A stretch of 64,000 nucleotides of DNA from Neoroseomonas terrae (GTDB taxonomy: Bacteria > Pseudomonadota > Alphaproteobacteria > Acetobacterales > Acetobacteraceae). The notes under the pieces were generated by a model. The model was not told the origin of the DNA, made no database searches, and was given only the letters and a program-made list of their open reading frames with translations. How positions within the stretch are numbered: the first letter of the stretch is position 1; each line of letters begins with the position of its first letter. The DNA is taken from NCBI RefSeq assembly GCF_018129025.1, contig NZ_JAAEDI010000005.1, positions 1-64,000 on the forward strand, in the 5' to 3' direction. Both the position numbers and the translations under genes were made by a program. Shown here piece by piece: positions 44,565 through 51,247 of the stretch.

Positions 44565-47396
44565 GTGTTCCGTGCGATGACATCCCTGGACCACGCCGGA
44601 CCCGACACCGGACCCTCCGAGGGCCCGGCACGGCGGCCGGCTCCGGTGGCGGGTGAACCACCTGTCCTTCTCTCCGGCCTGCTCGCGGACCTGATCCCCG
44701 ACGGCCGGCCCGTTCCGCGCGACGAGGCGGTGGCGCTGCTGCGGCGGCATCTCGGCCGCATCCAGAACCGCGTCCAGCAGGTGTTCGAGGCGCATGAGGT
44801 GTCTGGCCTGCCGGCGGCGCGCTGGCTGGCCTCCCTGACCGATGTCGTGATGATCGGCATCCGCGCCTATGCCGACGCATCCCTGCCGCCCGCGGCGGGC
44901 GACAAGCCGTGGGCGCTGGTGGCGACGGGCGGCTACGGCCGCGGGGTCCTCGCCCCCTATTCCGATATCGACCTGCTGTTCCTGACCGACGCCGGCATGG
45001 GCCCGCGCGGGCGGCAATCGGTCGAGTTCATGCTCTACCTGCTCTGGGATCTCGGCCTGAAGGTGGGGCACGCCACACGGTCGCGCGCCGATTGCCTGGT
45101 GGACGCCAAGGGCGACGCGACGGTGCTGACGGCGCTGCTCGATGCCCGGCACATCGCCGGGGAGGAAGCCGTGTTCCTCCGTTTCGCCGAAGCCTTCCGC
45201 AAGGCGCGCGCCGAATGGGGGCTGACGCCCTTCCTGGTGGCGAAGCGCGCCGAGCGCCAGCAGCGCCATGCGCGCTATGGCGAAAGCCCCTTCCTGGTCG
45301 AGCCGCATGTGAAGGAAGGCCGCGGCGGGCTGCGCGACCTGCAGACGCTCTACTGGCTCGCCCGCTACGCCTTCAACGTGCAGCGCATGCCGGAACTCGT
45401 CGGCCCCGACAGCCCCGGCGGCGGCCTGCTGCTGCCCGAGGAAGCGCGTGCCATCCGCCGCGCCTGGGACTTCTTCTGGACGGTCCGCTTCCACCTGCAC
45501 ATCGTCACCGGCCGCGCCGAGGAGCGCCTGACCTTCGACCTCCAGCCCGTCGTGGGCGCCCGCATGGGCTACACCCGTCACGGGCTTCAGGACGGAGTGG
45601 AACGCTTCATGAAGCACTTCTTCTTGATGGTGCGGGACGTCGCGCGGTTCAGCCGCATCGTCGAACCGGCGATTGAGCGCGCCTCGCTCGGCCCGCCCGC
45701 GGTGGTGCCGGCCTCCGACAAGGCGCTGACCGAGGCCGGCTTCGCGCTGGCGGACGGCAAGATCATCGCCGCCCCGGGCCACGACTTCACCATCGACCCC
45801 GTGCTGATGCTGCGCATCTTCCGCATGGCGCGCGATCGCGGACTCGACATCCATCCGCTGGCCTTCCGCGCCATCGTCCGCCACGCGCGCCACGTGGCGC
45901 GCCTGCGCGGCGAGAAGGAAGCGAGCAACGAATTCCTGAACCTGCTGACCGGCCGCGACCCGGCATACTGGCTCCGGCTGCTGAACGAGGCCGGGCTGAT
46001 CTCCCGCCTGCTGCCGGACTGGTCGCGCATCGTCGGGCTGATGCAGTTCGACACCTACCACGTCTTCACGGTGGACGAGCACACCATCGAGGCGGTGGGC
46101 GTCCTTGCCTCCCTCGAACGGGGGGAGCTGCACGAGATCGCGCCGGTCGCGAGCGAGCTGGTCGGCCAGTTGCAGTCGCGCCGCGCGCTCTACGTTGCCG
46201 TACTGCTGCACGACATCGCGAAGGGGCGCGGCGGGGACCATTCCGAACTGGGGGCGGAGCTGGCGCAGACCGTCTGCCCGATGCTCGGCATGACGCCGGA
46301 GGAGACGGAGACCGTGTCCTGGCTCGTGCTGCACCACCTGATGATCAGCCAGACGGCCTTCAAGCGCGACATCGAGGATCCGAAGACGATCCTCGACATC
46401 GCGGAGGTGGTGCAATCGCCCGAACGCCTGCGCCTGCTGCTGGTGCTGACGGTCGCTGACATGCGTGCGGTCGGACCGAAGGTCTGGAACGGCTGGAAAG
46501 CGACGCTGCTGCGGGAACTGTACTGGCGCGTGGCGGAAGTGCTGGCCGGCGGCCTGTCCGTGCCGGAACGCGACGTGCGCGTCGCCCGCGCGAAGGAAGC
46601 CGCCGCCCTGCTGCTGTCGGGCCGGCCCAAGGCGGAGATCGACGCGTTCCTCGAGCTCGGCTACCCCGGCTACTGGCTTTCCTTCGACCCGGAGACCCAT
46701 GCGCGCCACGCGGGGATGATCCAGGAAGCGAAGGAGGCGAAGGCGCCGCTGACCGTGCGGACGCGCGTGCTGGAAAGCCGCGCGGTGACGGAGGTGACGG
46801 TCTACTGCACCGACCATCCCGGCCTGTTCAGCAAGATTGCCGGCGCGCTGGCCGTTGCCGGCGCGACCATCGTCGATGCCCGCATCCACACCATGACGGA
46901 TGGCATGGCGCTCGACACCTTCTGGGTGCAGGACGCGCAGGGCGGCGCCTTCGAGGCGCCGCACCGCTTGGCGCGGCTCGCCGTGCTGGTGGAGCAGTCG
47001 CTGTCCGGCCGCCTGAGGCTGCGCGACGAAATCCGCAAGCTGAAGCGGGAACCGGCGCGGCTGCGCGCGGTGACGGTGCCGCCGCGCGTGGTGATCGACA
47101 ACCATGCGAGCAACACCCACACCGTGATCGAAGTGAATGGCCGCGACCGGCCGGGCCTGCTGCACGATGTCACGGCCGCGATCAGCGACCAGGGATTGCA
47201 GATCGGCTCCGCGCATATCACGACCTACGGCGTGCGGGCGGTCGACGTCTTCTACGTGAAGGATGTTTTCGGCCTGAAGATCGAGAACGAGCGCAAGCTC
47301 GCCACGCTGCGCCGGGCGCTGGAGGCCTCCCTGGAGCCCGCCGAGGCACCGGGCGGCGGCGGCATGGCGACGCGGGCGGTGGCGGGCCGGGCCTAG
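44565..47396 (+). CDS. glnD: [Protein-PII] uridylyltransferase/uridylyl-removing enzyme
   Basis: 943 residues from the GTG at 44565 (AAGGA 7 bases earlier); an ATG 12 bases later is a possible alternative. Nucleotidyltransferase site GGYGRGVLAPYSDIDLLFL near 121, GRGGLRDLQTLYWLARYAF, an HD domain with LLHDIAKGRGGDHSELG near 547, and two ACT domains near 742-815 and 855-930. GlnD adds or removes UMP on PII proteins in response to glutamine, setting the nitrogen state. It follows mutS by 3 bases. Confidence 0.98.
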   Translation: MFRAMTSLDHAGPDTGPSEGPARRPAPVAGEPPVLLSGLLADLIPDGRPVPRDEAVALLRRHLGRIQNRVQQVFEAHEVSGLPAARWLASLTDVVMIGIRAYADASLPPAAGDKPWALVATGGYGRGVLAPYSDIDLLFLTDAGMGPRGRQSVEFMLYLLWDLGLKVGHATRSRADCLVDAKGDATVLTALLDARHIAGEEAVFLRFAEAFRKARAEWGLTPFLVAKRAERQQRHARYGESPFLVEPHVKEGRGGLRDLQTLYWLARYAFNVQRMPELVGPDSPGGGLLLPEEARAIRRAWDFFWTVRFHLHIVTGRAEERLTFDLQPVVGARMGYTRHGLQDGVERFMKHFFLMVRDVARFSRIVEPAIERASLGPPAVVPASDKALTEAGFALADGKIIAAPGHDFTIDPVLMLRIFRMARDRGLDIHPLAFRAIVRHARHVARLRGEKEASNEFLNLLTGRDPAYWLRLLNEAGLISRLLPDWSRIVGLMQFDTYHVFTVDEHTIEAVGVLASLERGELHEIAPVASELVGQLQSRRALYVAVLLHDIAKGRGGDHSELGAELAQTVCPMLGMTPEETETVSWLVLHHLMISQTAFKRDIEDPKTILDIAEVVQSPERLRLLLVLTVADMRAVGPKVWNGWKATLLRELYWRVAEVLAGGLSVPERDVRVARAKEAAALLLSGRPKAEIDAFLELGYPGYWLSFDPETHARHAGMIQEAKEAKAPLTVRTRVLESRAVTEVTVYCTDHPGLFSKIAGALAVAGATIVDARIHTMTDGMALDTFWVQDAQGGAFEAPHRLARLAVLVEQSLSGRLRLRDEIRKLKREPARLRAVTVPPRVVIDNHASNTHTVIEVNGRDRPGLLHDVTAAISDQGLQIGSAHITTYGVRAVDVFYVKDVFGLKIENERKLATLRRALEASLEPAEAPGGGGMATRAVAGRA

Positions 47397-47462
47397 GCGC
47401 ACTCTTCACGTCTCCATCACATTGCACGTCTCAGCGGCACTGCTGATTGCGTGGCCGATGGA

Positions 47463-47477
47463 GAACGTATAGTGAAC
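47463..47477 (+). promoter_or_regulatory. Alphaproteobacterial SOS box (LexA operator) overlapping the -10 element
   Basis: GAAC (47463-47466), GTATAGT, GAAC (47474-47477): an exact GAAC-N7-GAAC direct repeat, which on the other strand is the GTTC-N7-GTTC LexA site of Alphaproteobacteria. The -10 hexamer TATAGT (47468-47473) lies inside the N7 spacer, so a bound LexA would block RNA polymerase. The site ends 7 bases before the ATG of the radical SAM gene. Confidence 0.85.
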
Positions 47478-47484
47478 ACGAGCC

Positions 47485-48714
47485 ATGCGCAAATCCCTTC
47501 GCGAGCGGCTCGCCATCCTGTCGGACGCCGCCAAATACGACGCCTCCTGCGCGTCGAGCGGGACGACGCGCCGTGACTCATCGAATGGTGGGCTCGGTTC
47601 GACCGAAGGGTCGGGCATCTGCCACGCCTATGCACCCGACGGGCGGTGCATCTCTCTGCTCAAGATCCTGCTGACCAACTTCTGCGTCTACGACTGCGCC
47701 TATTGCATCAATCGATCGTCCAGCAATGTCGAGCGCGCGCGCTTCACACCAGAGGAAGTCGTCTGGCTGACGCTGGAATTCTATCGGCGGAACTACATCG
47801 AGGGGTTGTTCCTCTCCTCCGGCATCGTGAAGTCGTCGGACCACACGATGGAGCAGATGGTGCGCGTCGCGCGGGATCTGCGAACGCAGCACGGCTTCAA
47901 GGGCTACATCCATCTCAAGACCATCCCCGAGGCGGCGCCGGCGCTGATCGAAGAAGCGGGGCTCTACGCGGATCGCCTGTCGATCAACATCGAGCTGCCG
48001 ACTGACACCGGCATCGCCGCCTTCGCGCCGGAAAAGCGGCCGGACGGCATCCGCCGCGCGATGGCCGATGTCCGGTTGCAGATCGAGGATGCCGGCGAAC
48101 CGACGCTGCGGACGAAGACGACGCGGCGCTTCGCGCCGGCCGGCCAATCCACCCAGATGATCGTCGGCGCCGATGGCGCGAGCGATGCGACCATCCTCGC
48201 CACCAGCGCGCGGCTCTACGGCAGCTACGGGCTGAAGCGGGTCTACTACTCCGCCTTCAGCCCGATCCCGGATGCATCATCCCGCCTGCCGCCGACCAAG
48301 CCGCCGCTGATGCGCGAGCACCGGCTGTACCAGGCGGATTGGCTGTATCGCTTCTATGGCTTCGGCATCGAGGAAGTCACCGCGACGCGCGCGGACGGGA
48401 TGCTCGATCTCGACATGGATCCGAAGCTCGCCTGGGCGCTGACCCATCGCGATCGCTTTCCGGTCGATGTGAACAAGGCCGCGCGAGAGATGCTGCTGCG
48501 CGTGCCGGGGCTCGGTATCAAGGCGGCGGATGCGATCATCGCGTCCCGCCGCCATCGTCGCCTGCGCCTCGATGACCTGGCTCGGCTTCGCGTGCCGCTG
48601 CGCAAGGCGCGGCCCTACATCATTGCCGAGGGCTGGACCCCGCTGCGGCTGATCGACCGGTCGGATCTGGCGACGCTCATCGCGCCCCAGCCGCAGCAAT
48701 TGTCGCTGCTGTGA
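47485..48714 (+). CDS. Putative DNA modification/repair radical SAM protein
   Basis: 409 residues from the ATG at 47485. The radical SAM cluster motif C-x3-C-x2-C is CVYDCAYC at residues 67-74, within LLTNFCVYDCAYCINR. FTPEEVVWLTLEFYRRNYIEGLFLSSGI and GYIHLKTIPEAAPALIEEAG give the barrel. The C-terminus (about 325-370) is a helix-hairpin-helix DNA-binding segment: LLRVPGLGIKAADAIIASR. This is the rSAM family known to be linked to UDG-type proteins; reaction and substrate are not established. It is directly followed by and overlaps the UdgX gene and has an exact LexA box over its promoter. No ribosome-binding site is needed if the mRNA is nearly leaderless. Confidence 0.9.
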   Translation: MRKSLRERLAILSDAAKYDASCASSGTTRRDSSNGGLGSTEGSGICHAYAPDGRCISLLKILLTNFCVYDCAYCINRSSSNVERARFTPEEVVWLTLEFYRRNYIEGLFLSSGIVKSSDHTMEQMVRVARDLRTQHGFKGYIHLKTIPEAAPALIEEAGLYADRLSINIELPTDTGIAAFAPEKRPDGIRRAMADVRLQIEDAGEPTLRTKTTRRFAPAGQSTQMIVGADGASDATILATSARLYGSYGLKRVYYSAFSPIPDASSRLPPTKPPLMREHRLYQADWLYRFYGFGIEEVTATRADGMLDLDMDPKLAWALTHRDRFPVDVNKAAREMLLRVPGLGIKAADAIIASRRHRRLRLDDLARLRVPLRKARPYIIAEGWTPLRLIDRSDLATLIAPQPQQLSLL

Positions 48715-50252
48715 TGCAGACCGTCATGCTGCACGGCGCGGGTGATGTCGCCGAATGGCGCAACGTCGCGCGGTCCTTGGCGCTCGCCGGCACGCGCCCT
48801 GAGGAGATCGACTGGCGCGAGGGGGAGGAAGCGTCGCTCTTTGCCGCTCAGCCCTTGCCCTCGCCGAGCGCGGAGGTCGCGTCGCTGCGCGTGCCGCGAG
48901 CCTTCCTCGATTTGGCAGAGGCGGTCATCTGCCATGCCGATGCCGGCCGCTTCGCGCTTCTGTATCGCATCCTGCTGCGGCTTCAGGACGATGCCGCGTT
49001 GCTGTCGGTCGCCGCGGATGCAGATATTGCCGCAGCGCACCGCATGGAGAAATCCGTGCGCCGCGACTGCCACAAGATGACGGCCTTCGTCCGGTTCCGC
49101 GAAGTGCCGGGTGATGAAGGCAGCGTCCGCCGCCGCTTCGTCGCCTGGTTCGAACCGGACCACCACATCGTGCGGCGCATGGCGCCCTTCTTCGTGCGCC
49201 GCTTCGCCGACATGGACTGGATGATCCTGACGCCAAAGGGATCGGCCGCGTTCCAGGCCGGCGATCTGACCGTCTCCGACGCGCCCGCCGTGAAGCCCGA
49301 CCTCGCGGACCCGACCGATGCGCTGTGGCTCACCTACTACGCCTCGATCTTCAACCCCGCGCGGCTGAAGGTGAAGGCGATGCAATCGGAAATGCCGAAG
49401 AAGTACTGGAAGAACCTGCCCGAAGCCGCGCTGATCCCGACGCTGATCGAACAGGTGCCATCGCGCCTCGCCGCCATGGCGTACCAGGCTGCGCAGGCGC
49501 CGCCAGTTTTCCACGCGCGTATCCAGGCGCGCCGGCAGGACGTGGATGCGGAGCCACCCGCGCCATCCGGCACGCTCGCCGCGCTGCGCGACGCTGCCCG
49601 AACCTGCACTCGCTGCCCGCTCCATTGCCAGGCGACGCAGACCGTCTTCGGCGAAGGCCCCGACACCGCCGAACTGATGATCGTCGGCGAGCAGCCCGGC
49701 GATCATGAGGATTTGGCCGGCCGCCCGTTCGTCGGCCCGGCCGGGCGGCTGTTCGACCGCACGCTCGGCGAGGCCGGTATCGACCGAGCGGCGACCTACG
49801 TCACCAACGCCGTGAAGCACTTCAAGCACGAACCGCGCGGCAAGCGCCGCCTTCACCGCACACCGAATGCCGGCGAGATCGACCATTGCCGCTGGTGGCT
49901 GCGGCACGAGATCACGCTGGTAAAGCCGAAGCTGATCGTCGCGACGGGCGCCACCGCGATGTTCGCTTTGACAGGTGAGAAGGGCAGGCTGGCGGACCAT
50001 CGCGGCAGCGTGCAGCCGTTCGATGACGGCAGCGCGCTGCTGGTGACGGTCCACCCCGCCTATCTGCTGCGCCTGCCCGACCCGCGCGCCGCGGAGGACG
50101 AAACGCGCCGTTTCCGCGCCGACCTGGTCGCGGCGCGGGACTGGCTCGCTACGACCCCGGCACGCCCTTCGACGTCGAATACTCGAAATGCAGCGCCTCT
50201 CCCGGAAACACGCGCGGATGGATGGCATGCGCCGCCATCGCCGCCTCGCTGA
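48714..50252 (+). CDS. udgX: DUF4130-UdgX fusion, uracil-DNA-crosslinking glycosylase-family protein
   Basis: 512 residues from the ATG at 48714 (a GTG one codon earlier is possible); overlaps the rSAM stop. The N-terminal half (about 1-280) is the rSAM-linked DUF4130 domain with HRMEKSVRRDCHKMTAFVRF and HIVRRMAPFFVRRF. The C-terminal half is family-4-like UDG: Fe-S ligands start in CTRCPLHC near 297, motif A GEQPGDHEDLAGRPFVGPAG near 325, the UdgX arginine loop GKRRLH with His about 381, and motif B HPAYLLR near 450. In mycobacterial UdgX the matching histidine bonds covalently to the abasic site after uracil removal. The last 34 residues overlap the convergent gene and look unconserved. Confidence 0.9.
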   Translation: MQTVMLHGAGDVAEWRNVARSLALAGTRPEEIDWREGEEASLFAAQPLPSPSAEVASLRVPRAFLDLAEAVICHADAGRFALLYRILLRLQDDAALLSVAADADIAAAHRMEKSVRRDCHKMTAFVRFREVPGDEGSVRRRFVAWFEPDHHIVRRMAPFFVRRFADMDWMILTPKGSAAFQAGDLTVSDAPAVKPDLADPTDALWLTYYASIFNPARLKVKAMQSEMPKKYWKNLPEAALIPTLIEQVPSRLAAMAYQAAQAPPVFHARIQARRQDVDAEPPAPSGTLAALRDAARTCTRCPLHCQATQTVFGEGPDTAELMIVGEQPGDHEDLAGRPFVGPAGRLFDRTLGEAGIDRAATYVTNAVKHFKHEPRGKRRLHRTPNAGEIDHCRWWLRHEITLVKPKLIVATGATAMFALTGEKGRLADHRGSVQPFDDGSALLVTVHPAYLLRLPDPRAAEDETRRFRADLVAARDWLATTPARPSTSNTRNAAPLPETRADGWHAPPSPPR

Positions 50253-51165
50253 ATCCCTGCAGGATCAGCTTCAGCTTCCCCGGATAGGTCGCGATATCGC
50301 CGATCGCGAAGACGCCATCGACATTGGTCGCGCAGGTCGAAGGCTCGACCGCGATGTGGTGGCGGTCCAGCCCCAGCCCCCATTCCGCGATCGGCCCCAG
50401 CTCCATCGACAGGCCGAAGAAGGCCAGCAGGTGGTCGGCGGGGATGTCGCGCTCCTCACCCTTCAGCGTTGCGACGGTCACGGCTTCCAGCGTCGATCCA
50501 TCCCCCTTCAGCCCATGGAGCTGGTACGGGATGACCATGTCGACCTCGCCCTTCGCCGCGGCGGCATCGAGCTGCGCGGCGGTTTCCGGCGCCGCGCGGA
50601 ACTTCGGCCGGCGGTGCACGACCGTCACCTTCGCCGCGACACCCTTCAGCGACAGCGCCCAATCGACCGCGGAATCGCCGCCGCCGGCGATGACCACGCG
50701 CTTGCCGCGCATCTCCTCCCGCCGCGAGACCATGTAGCGCACCGCGCCGCCCGCCTCGTAGCCAGCCAGCCCGTCAAGCGGCGGCCGGTTCGGCCCGAAG
50801 GCGCCCGCTCCCGCTGCGATGATCACGGCCTTGCAGCGGATCGTTTCGCCGGCCGAGGTGCCGAGGACGATCATCTCCCCCTCGCGCAGCAGCGCTTCGA
50901 CCCGCCGGCCGAGCAATGTGACCGGCGCGAAGGGCTCGATCTGCTTCTCCAGCTGCCCGATCAGGTCGGCGGCCGCGATCGCGGGAAGCGCCGGGATGTC
51001 GTAGATGGGCTTTTCCGGATACAGCGCCGTGCACTGCCCGCCCACGGCTTCCAGCGCGTCGATCACCACGCACTTCATGCGCAGCATGCCACATTCGAAT
51101 ACCGCGAACAGGCCGACCGGCCCCGCTCCGATGATCGCGACATCCGTTTCGATGACGGCCGCCAT
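50149..51165 (-). CDS. Thioredoxin-reductase-like ferredoxin-NADP(+) reductase
   Basis: 338 residues from the ATG at 51165 (GGGGGAG upstream). FAD site VAIIGAGPVGLFAVFECGM, then VGGQCTALYPEKPIYDIPALP, NADP site RVVIAGGGDSAVDWALSL, VHRRPKFRA, and the second FAD segment GVFAIGDIATYPGKLKLI. The redox CxxC of thioredoxin reductase is absent, as expected for this FNR type (YumC-like). It moves electrons between NADPH and ferredoxin or flavodoxin. Its 3' end overlaps the end of the UdgX gene by 104 bases, tail to tail. Confidence 0.93.
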   Translation of the reverse strand: MAAVIETDVAIIGAGPVGLFAVFECGMLRMKCVVIDALEAVGGQCTALYPEKPIYDIPALPAIAAADLIGQLEKQIEPFAPVTLLGRRVEALLREGEMIVLGTSAGETIRCKAVIIAAGAGAFGPNRPPLDGLAGYEAGGAVRYMVSRREEMRGKRVVIAGGGDSAVDWALSLKGVAAKVTVVHRRPKFRAAPETAAQLDAAAAKGEVDMVIPYQLHGLKGDGSTLEAVTVATLKGEERDIPADHLLAFFGLSMELGPIAEWGLGLDRHHIAVEPSTCATNVDGVFAIGDIATYPGKLKLILQGFSEAAMAAHAIHPRVFPGEALHFEYSTSKGVPGS

Positions 51166-51247
51166 GGGCACTCCCCCAAATCGAGCCTCGCGTGATAGAC
51201 GGAGTGCGCTCAAGGATCAAAGCCGCGCCGTCCCCGGCGCCCCTGCC

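Follow-up and report, generated by a model that had tools for sequence, protein, structure and literature searches.

A putative DNA-damage operon of a radical SAM protein and a DUF4130-UdgX fusion behind a conserved LexA box in Neoroseomonas terrae

The first 64,000 nucleotides (nt) of contig NZ_JAAEDI010000005.1 of the alphaproteobacterium Neoroseomonas terrae (assembly GCF_018129025.1), referred to here as the window, include two overlapping plus-strand genes preceded by a LexA (SOS) box. The first gene (47485-48714) encodes a 409-residue radical S-adenosylmethionine (SAM) protein matched by TIGR03916 (rSAM_link_UDG; 570 bits against a cut-off of 343.5) and PF04055, and the second (48714-50252) encodes a 512-residue protein in which a DUF4130 domain (TIGR03915/PF13566; 48738-49427) is fused to a UdgX domain (TIGR03914/PF03167; 49431-50129). 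The ATG of the second gene, at 48714, shares its A with the last base of the TGA of the first, giving a TGATG overlap. The operon proteins match TIGR03916, TIGR03915 and TIGR03914 over their cut-offs, and the NCBIfam/Pfam matches bear out the gene arrangement proposed in a first-pass annotation made from the sequence alone. NCBIfam names these families a putative DNA modification/repair radical SAM protein, a putative DNA repair protein and UdgX, respectively. The operon itself is of a known but uncharacterised kind. Sequence comparison strongly supports its being a LexA-repressed SOS unit; its core is the radical SAM protein plus DUF4130, and UdgX is an optional part.

The box, GAAC-N7-GAAC (GAACGTATAGTGAAC; GTTC-N7-GTTC on the other strand), occupies 47463-47477 of the plus strand, is exact and ends seven bases before the radical SAM ATG at 47485, and its spacer contains a -10-like hexamer, TATAGT (47468-47473, plus strand), all as first described. 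Because the ATG lies just 12 nt 3' of TATAGT, we infer a nearly leaderless (or short-leader) transcript; a consensus scan of 47380-47500 returned no sigma-70-type promoter, which speaks against the -10 reading of the hexamer. A single box in 64 kb was not accepted as evidence of SOS control, since 0.94 exact matches are expected in a shuffled 64-kb window and at least one match occurred in 64 of 100 shuffles. Chance would thus give about one exact box in a stretch of this length, and the weight of the argument rests on the conservation of the box. In the 5.77-Mb genome the exact box occurs 142 times, against 39 occurrences of the reversed pattern. The genome has one lexA match, above the family cut-off, with a box upstream (GTTCTATTTAGGTTC, contig plus strand) that starts 68 nt from the profile match, and the box upstream of recA (GAACAAATTAAGAAC, contig plus strand) starts 170 nt from the profile match.

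Orthologous pairs carry the same box. There are 582 confirmed relatives in genome_contigs, and the best 80 of them form the set of named loci. In 78 of these 80, an exact GAAC-N7-GAAC falls either within the 250 nt that precede the match or within the first 30 nt of the match itself, with TATAGT at the same place in 26 of these 78 boxes; other spacings occur in 0-6 of the 80, and the background, counted in either orientation, is 4 of 1735 windows. The other two named loci (L050 and L052) have a box with one mismatch. When the exact box was sought within 150 nt in either orientation, it was present in 16 of the 17 other genomes of the class over the cut-off and in 23 of 29 family (Acetobacteraceae) loci, these 29 having been fetched out of 57 other family genomes over the cut-off. 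The background was 2 in 1091 windows, and any other spacing was seen in 0-3 of these 46 loci. The opposite orientation, GTTC-N7-GTTC, was seen in six family loci (L150, L153, L160, L167, L169 and L170), 51-101 nt before the profile match.

The radical SAM family of this operon is widespread: of 398 genomes sampled across the phylum, 84, that of the window included, have a match over the cut-off. All 29 over-cut-off genomes outside the class were fetched, several of them from one genus. In 19 of these 29 loci the 150 nt upstream contain CTGT-N8-ACAG, which is the classical LexA consensus of E. coli (background, 4 of 601), and other CTGT-ACAG spacings (4 to 12) occur in none of them; CTGT-N8-ACAG is found in none of the 80 alphaproteobacterial named loci, just as the alphaproteobacterial box is found in none of the 29 outside the class. 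Five more of the 29 have CTG-N10-CAG, a form with no background count, and the remainder (L204-L206, L228 and L232) have neither form. Several points weigh against this reading: an exact box is missing from 6 of the 29 family loci and 1 of the 17 class loci, and exact CTGT-N8-ACAG from 10 of the 29 loci outside the class. In addition, the loci are best hits and mutually related, with duplicates (L047=L122 and L177=L232) among the 185 collected, so that the counts are not independent trials. The strongest argument for SOS membership is that the pair tracks each lineage's own LexA motif. The SOS control put forward in the first-pass annotation thus draws strong support from comparative genomics, the box being conserved within the class and replaced by another LexA box outside it; the missing box that the annotation named as a refutation was not what the orthologous pairs showed.

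The association of the radical SAM gene with DUF4130, its regular partner, is close to invariable. Among 289 genomes of the class, 18 have the radical SAM protein over the cut-off, 18 have DUF4130 and 17 have both, and in these 17 the two genes share a strand and are no more than 0.7 kb apart. A control genome named Caulobacter vibrioides matches both TIGR03916 and TIGR03915; two of the three control matches to TIGR03916 exceed the cut-off. Of the exceptions, one locus ends at a contig end (G045), and the other (G182; L130, G182:C1) has a well-matching DUF4130 beside a radical SAM match covering only residues 270-399, the C-terminal part, where the radical SAM gene has possibly decayed. Across the 185 loci (two of them duplicates), DUF4130 follows the radical SAM gene in 182, the misses being a contig end (L129), a weak DUF4130 match (L143) and a locus without DUF4130 (L144). 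A linkage of DUF4130 with radical SAM and uracil glycosylases is likewise given in a 2013 figure legend, in the part of that source available (PMC3765255). A point against the functional reading given below is that no radical SAM match exists in G390, a genome from the same genus. A search of DUF4130 by sequence against the PDB gave five chance-level matches (best E 0.28), and a structure search with the whole 512-residue protein listed UDG-type matches.

L144 (IMGVR_UViG_3300006947_003566) is a viral contig on which a radical SAM gene has its own box (GAACGTATATCGAAC); its upstream open reading frames (ORFs) resemble phage tail genes, as judged by eye from the translations, and no DUF4130 is present in the 777 nt behind the radical SAM gene. 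Two IMG/VR scans led to this same single contig. Matches by tblastn in 10 "phages" records were also considered, and a phage origin of these is doubtful; in the record "Acinetobacter phage MD-2021a" the pair lies close to glyS and glyQ, and this record looks chromosomal.

In the window the UdgX part scores 327.9 bits against a cut-off of 189.95 and retains motif A (GEQPG, at 325), the R-loop KRRLH with His381 (49842-49856, plus strand) and motif B (HPAYLLR, at 447), and it matches M. smegmatis UdgX both in sequence (phmmer E 2.8e-50) and in structure (VIA-align Z 30.0 over 188 residues, root-mean-square deviation (rmsd) 1.1). His381, whose presence in a KRRxH loop had been correctly noted at first pass, is equivalent to the crosslinking H109 of MsmUdgX. 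A fusion was defined as GEQPG in the DUF4130 frame, and the labels fused and alone were used for the 80 named loci only, short flanks cutting some genes elsewhere. By this definition 66 named loci have a fused UdgX and 13 a DUF4130 by itself, and the remaining one is truncated at the locus end. The R-loop pattern is found in 62 of the 66 fused proteins, motif B in 63 and CxxC in 64; the crosslinking His is kept in all 66, the four R-loops outside the pattern being KFRLH, RTRLH or HRRIH.

Of the 17 class genomes with the pair, 10 have UdgX fused, two have UdgX over the cut-off elsewhere and five have no UdgX match over the cut-off at all; conversely, 12 of the 24 class genomes (among 289) with UdgX over the cut-off are without the pair. 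No UdgX was found in the fetched stretches of gut and Acinetobacter homologues. In a tree of 84 proteins (79 named loci, the window and four others, with a very long L142 branch), the state of DUF4130 without UdgX needs at least four changes; on this tree, UdgX has been lost or gained several times. These observations bear on an explanation in which the operon serves uracil-centred base excision. SOS polymerases would introduce uracil or ribonucleotides, UdgX would be the component that acts on them, and the radical SAM protein would assist; this comes close to the idea of the first-pass annotation. Such a role agrees with the intact UdgX motifs of the window and the R-loops and His of the fused proteins, and a uracil-glycosylase base excision role is proposed in the available part of PMC8565304. 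It is nonetheless unlikely, given the 13 named loci and 7 class genomes in which DUF4130 lacks a fused UdgX, the five among those seven without a UdgX match over the cut-off, the 12 class genomes in which UdgX occurs without the pair and the gut and Acinetobacter stretches that lack it. The earlier idea that the pair traps a uracil-like base is weakened by the loci without fused UdgX (13 of 80 named, 7 of 17 in the class) and by UdgX without the pair (12 of 289 class genomes); the crosslinking His, kept in all fused proteins, speaks for it.

Other UdgX proteins were also encountered. A second, stand-alone UdgX in the genome of the window (L235; G000:C2:136621-137208, minus strand) scores 250.1 bits, over the cut-off, keeps an R-loop (GRRRLH) and has by eye lost the Fe-S cysteines; its locus has no exact GAAC/GTTC-N7 box. 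The fused proteins of Oceanicola granulosus (L081) and of a Maritimibacter metagenome-assembled genome (L093) keep KRRxH and are missing C-x2-C and the later Cys. Since these two retain the loop without the cysteines, UdgX proteins without an iron-sulphur cluster may exist, judging from their sequences.

The radical SAM protein of the window has six cysteines in total. Three of them form the radical SAM motif C67-x3-C71-x2-C74 (47683-47706, plus strand; PF04055), and the three extra ones, C22, C46 and C55 (codons within 47548-47649, plus strand), are predicted to hold a second iron-sulphur cluster. Every one of 183 distinct proteins has all six, at identities as low as 47%; this set is what was left of 186 proteins once two duplicates and one that was too short had been removed. 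The same six are present by eye in the gut homologues L238 and L239. The occurrence of three extra invariant cysteines before CX3CX2C suggests that they bind a second [4Fe-4S] cluster. In TYW1 and LipA the second-cluster cysteines are also N-terminal, with spacings of CX12CX12C and CX4CX5C, respectively, according to the part of PMC5352715 available.

Several observations weigh against this prediction. The CX23CX8C spacing of the window protein fits neither TYW1 nor LipA, so that there is likeness to these enzymes and not membership. The AlphaFold model of the radical SAM protein is good in parts only (predicted local distance difference test (pLDDT) score 74, predicted template modelling (pTM) score 0.71) and falls under pLDDT 50 at residues 17-82, the site of the extra cysteines; with the model poor at this site, the second cluster is predicted from sequence only. 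In favour of the prediction, the top VIA-align match of the model is lipoyl synthase (LipA/LIAS; Z 13.0 over 216 residues, rmsd 4.0), followed by HydE, HydG and biotin synthase at 1.1 to 1.3 Z lower. Against it, top matches within 1 Z of one another are tied, and a TIM (triosephosphate isomerase) barrel shows no function. Foldseek gave no match for the model at E 0.001 or better, and the sequence search against the PDB gave weak partial matches, the best at E 0.04, all to proteins other than TYW1, MiaB, RimO or LipA.

The cysteine layout also invites an explanation in terms of DNA modification, in which the radical SAM protein would add a group such as sulphur or methylthio to bases, thereby marking the DNA for protection or signalling in the SOS response and not repairing it. 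The layout resembles that of sulphur-inserting and methylthio-transferring enzymes and of the base-remodelling TYW1, as described in the available part of PMC5352715. We regard this explanation as improbable: PADLOC matched neither protein, a result obtained with no search for further partner genes, and SOS control would fit repair better than a standing mark. Spore photoproduct lyase, apart from which few radical SAM enzymes have to our knowledge been shown to act on DNA bases, is not known to have a second cluster. An enzyme similar to it, able to reverse a thymine photolesion directly while DUF4130 acts on thymines, is the least probable explanation, since the three extra invariant cysteines point to a second cluster and spore photoproduct lyase is not among the 50 Foldseek/VIA-align matches listed (an absence that excludes nothing), even though SplB is SOS-regulated in several species (PMC8565304, available part).

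Two further elements of the radical SAM protein connect it with DNA. The first is a helix-hairpin-helix segment (residues 327-356; 48463-48552, plus strand), which probably binds DNA. The helix-hairpin-helix tail claimed at first pass is present as a PF12836 match (E 6.1e-5), with the reservation that its 23.5 bits are under the Pfam gathering score of 27, which counts against the segment; ComEA-type PDB chains match it weakly (E 0.04). The second is a C-terminal clamp-type motif, QLSLL (residues 405-409; 48697-48711, plus strand). The clamp consensus is QL[S/D]LF, and the C-terminus is its usual place in translesion polymerases, according to the part of PMC3716654 available. Of the 183 tails, 90 have a strict form, Q[LM][SD][LM][FL], in the last 14 residues, compared with 31 among 36600 shuffled ones, and elsewhere in the proteins this form occurs once in 73777 positions; a broad penta-/hexapeptide form is found in 180 of 183 tails against 1177 of 18300 shuffled tails, and elsewhere 36 times in 72716 positions. 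Neighbouring ORFs (strict 0 of 304, broad 1 of 304) and DUF4130 ORFs (strict 0 of 55, broad 1 of 55) are practically free of either. On the other side, the broad form was widened after the tails had been seen and is fitted by 6% of shuffled tails, and about half of the tails fit it only. The model of the window protein has a mean pLDDT of 63 and 58 in its last two blocks. From these sequence counts the radical SAM protein is predicted to dock on the beta sliding clamp.

On balance, the function that we consider somewhat the more probable is that of a radical SAM enzyme with two clusters, induced by SOS and docked on the clamp, that acts with DUF4130 on damaged bases, UdgX being an optional trap. 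Following DNA damage, RecA would inactivate LexA and the operon would be derepressed, as the conserved boxes imply, and a short-leader or leaderless mRNA would give two translationally coupled proteins. The radical SAM protein would be the catalytic core, in which a [4Fe-4S] cluster on C67/C71/C74 would cleave SAM and the predicted second cluster, on C22/C46/C55, would leave one iron free for a co-substrate or sulphur. Its helix-hairpin-helix segment would grip DNA and its QLSLF-type tail would dock it on the beta clamp, so that it would act at stalled or translesion forks, and DUF4130 would probably present the DNA substrate. Together, the radical SAM protein and DUF4130 would alter a damaged base by hydrogen abstraction, and the lesion would be either reversed or made removable by base excision. 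Where UdgX is fused, it could, by analogy with its characterised relative, cut out uracil-like bases, bond to the abasic site via His381 and shield it until repair. DNA as the substrate and the type of reaction are, for the pair, what its sequence features lead us to infer.

A more specific and more tentative version is that the two-[4Fe-4S] enzyme with an open iron site, placed on the clamp with DUF4130, performs an undescribed chemistry on bases of damaged DNA, such as the insertion of sulphur or carbon or the radical reversal of a crosslink, with UdgX as an add-on trap in some lineages. We know of no defined reaction for the radical SAM protein TIGR03916. A literature search found no report of the reaction of the pair, most subscription papers lying outside its coverage, and the available part of a survey of Caulobacter repair genes (PMC1839093) has nothing on the radical SAM/DUF4130 pair. 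The same search met no paper joining radical SAM with a clamp-binding motif, and the second-cluster cysteines and the clamp motif appear to be new relative to the literature searched. Their value is that the six-cysteine layout and the clamp motif give the label "putative DNA modification/repair" concrete, testable predictions.

As for its surroundings, the operon is preceded, 5' of the LexA box, by glnD (ORF 44565-47396, from the ORF list and a profile match), and a convergent pyridine-nucleotide oxidoreductase gene (50149-51213, minus strand) overlaps the end of the second gene. The radical SAM protein of the window is 80.7% identical to a Rhizobium protein and no more than 70.9% identical to any of the 29 relatives fetched from its own family, and in the tree it is placed among mostly Rhizobiales rows, with poorly supported nearest forks. 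Given this identity and placement, the operon may have been acquired horizontally. A radical SAM homologue is present in 158 plasmid records. A role in anti-phage defence was rejected, as PADLOC has no match for either operon protein; PHROGs gave a weak radical SAM match alone.

Compared with known systems, no difference is seen between the operon and the families TIGR03916, TIGR03915 and TIGR03914; it belongs to them in the form in which DUF4130 carries a fused UdgX. COG4277 is presumably the TIGR03916 protein. On that assumption the SOS regulation of the pair is not new, since the available part of PMC8565304 reports SOS regulation in Bacteroidetes for an operon of two genes, COG1573 and COG4277, that includes a uracil-DNA glycosylase, and also cites SOS-regulated uracil-glycosylase repair systems in Verrucomicrobia (Erill 2016) and Alphaproteobacteria (Paes da Rocha 2008). 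That operon likewise places a uracil glycosylase and a second gene under SOS control, and no regulatory novelty arises here; the cluster and clamp predictions made for the window operon are not in that part of its account. The term "undescribed system" used in the first-pass annotation is too strong, in view of the NCBIfam models for all three domains, the SOS operon (PMC8565304) and the DUF4130 link (PMC3765255), as far as the available parts of these two sources go.

M. smegmatis UdgX, in which H109 is the crosslinking residue and uracil excision is accompanied by bonding to DNA (PMC10359453, available part), has GEQPG, KRRxH with its His and motif B in common with the window UdgX, which differs in being fused behind DUF4130 in a gene overlapping a radical SAM gene and whose crosslinking is a prediction. 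With the clamp-binding translesion polymerases (Pol II, QLGLF; UmuC, QLNLF; PMC3716654, available part), the radical SAM protein has the motif, its C-terminal position and SOS control in common, whereas it is no polymerase and its clamp binding is predicted from its sequence. Finally, TYW1, MiaB, RimO and LipA share with it three further cysteines before CX3CX2C, to which the window protein adds a helix-hairpin-helix segment and a clamp-type tail.

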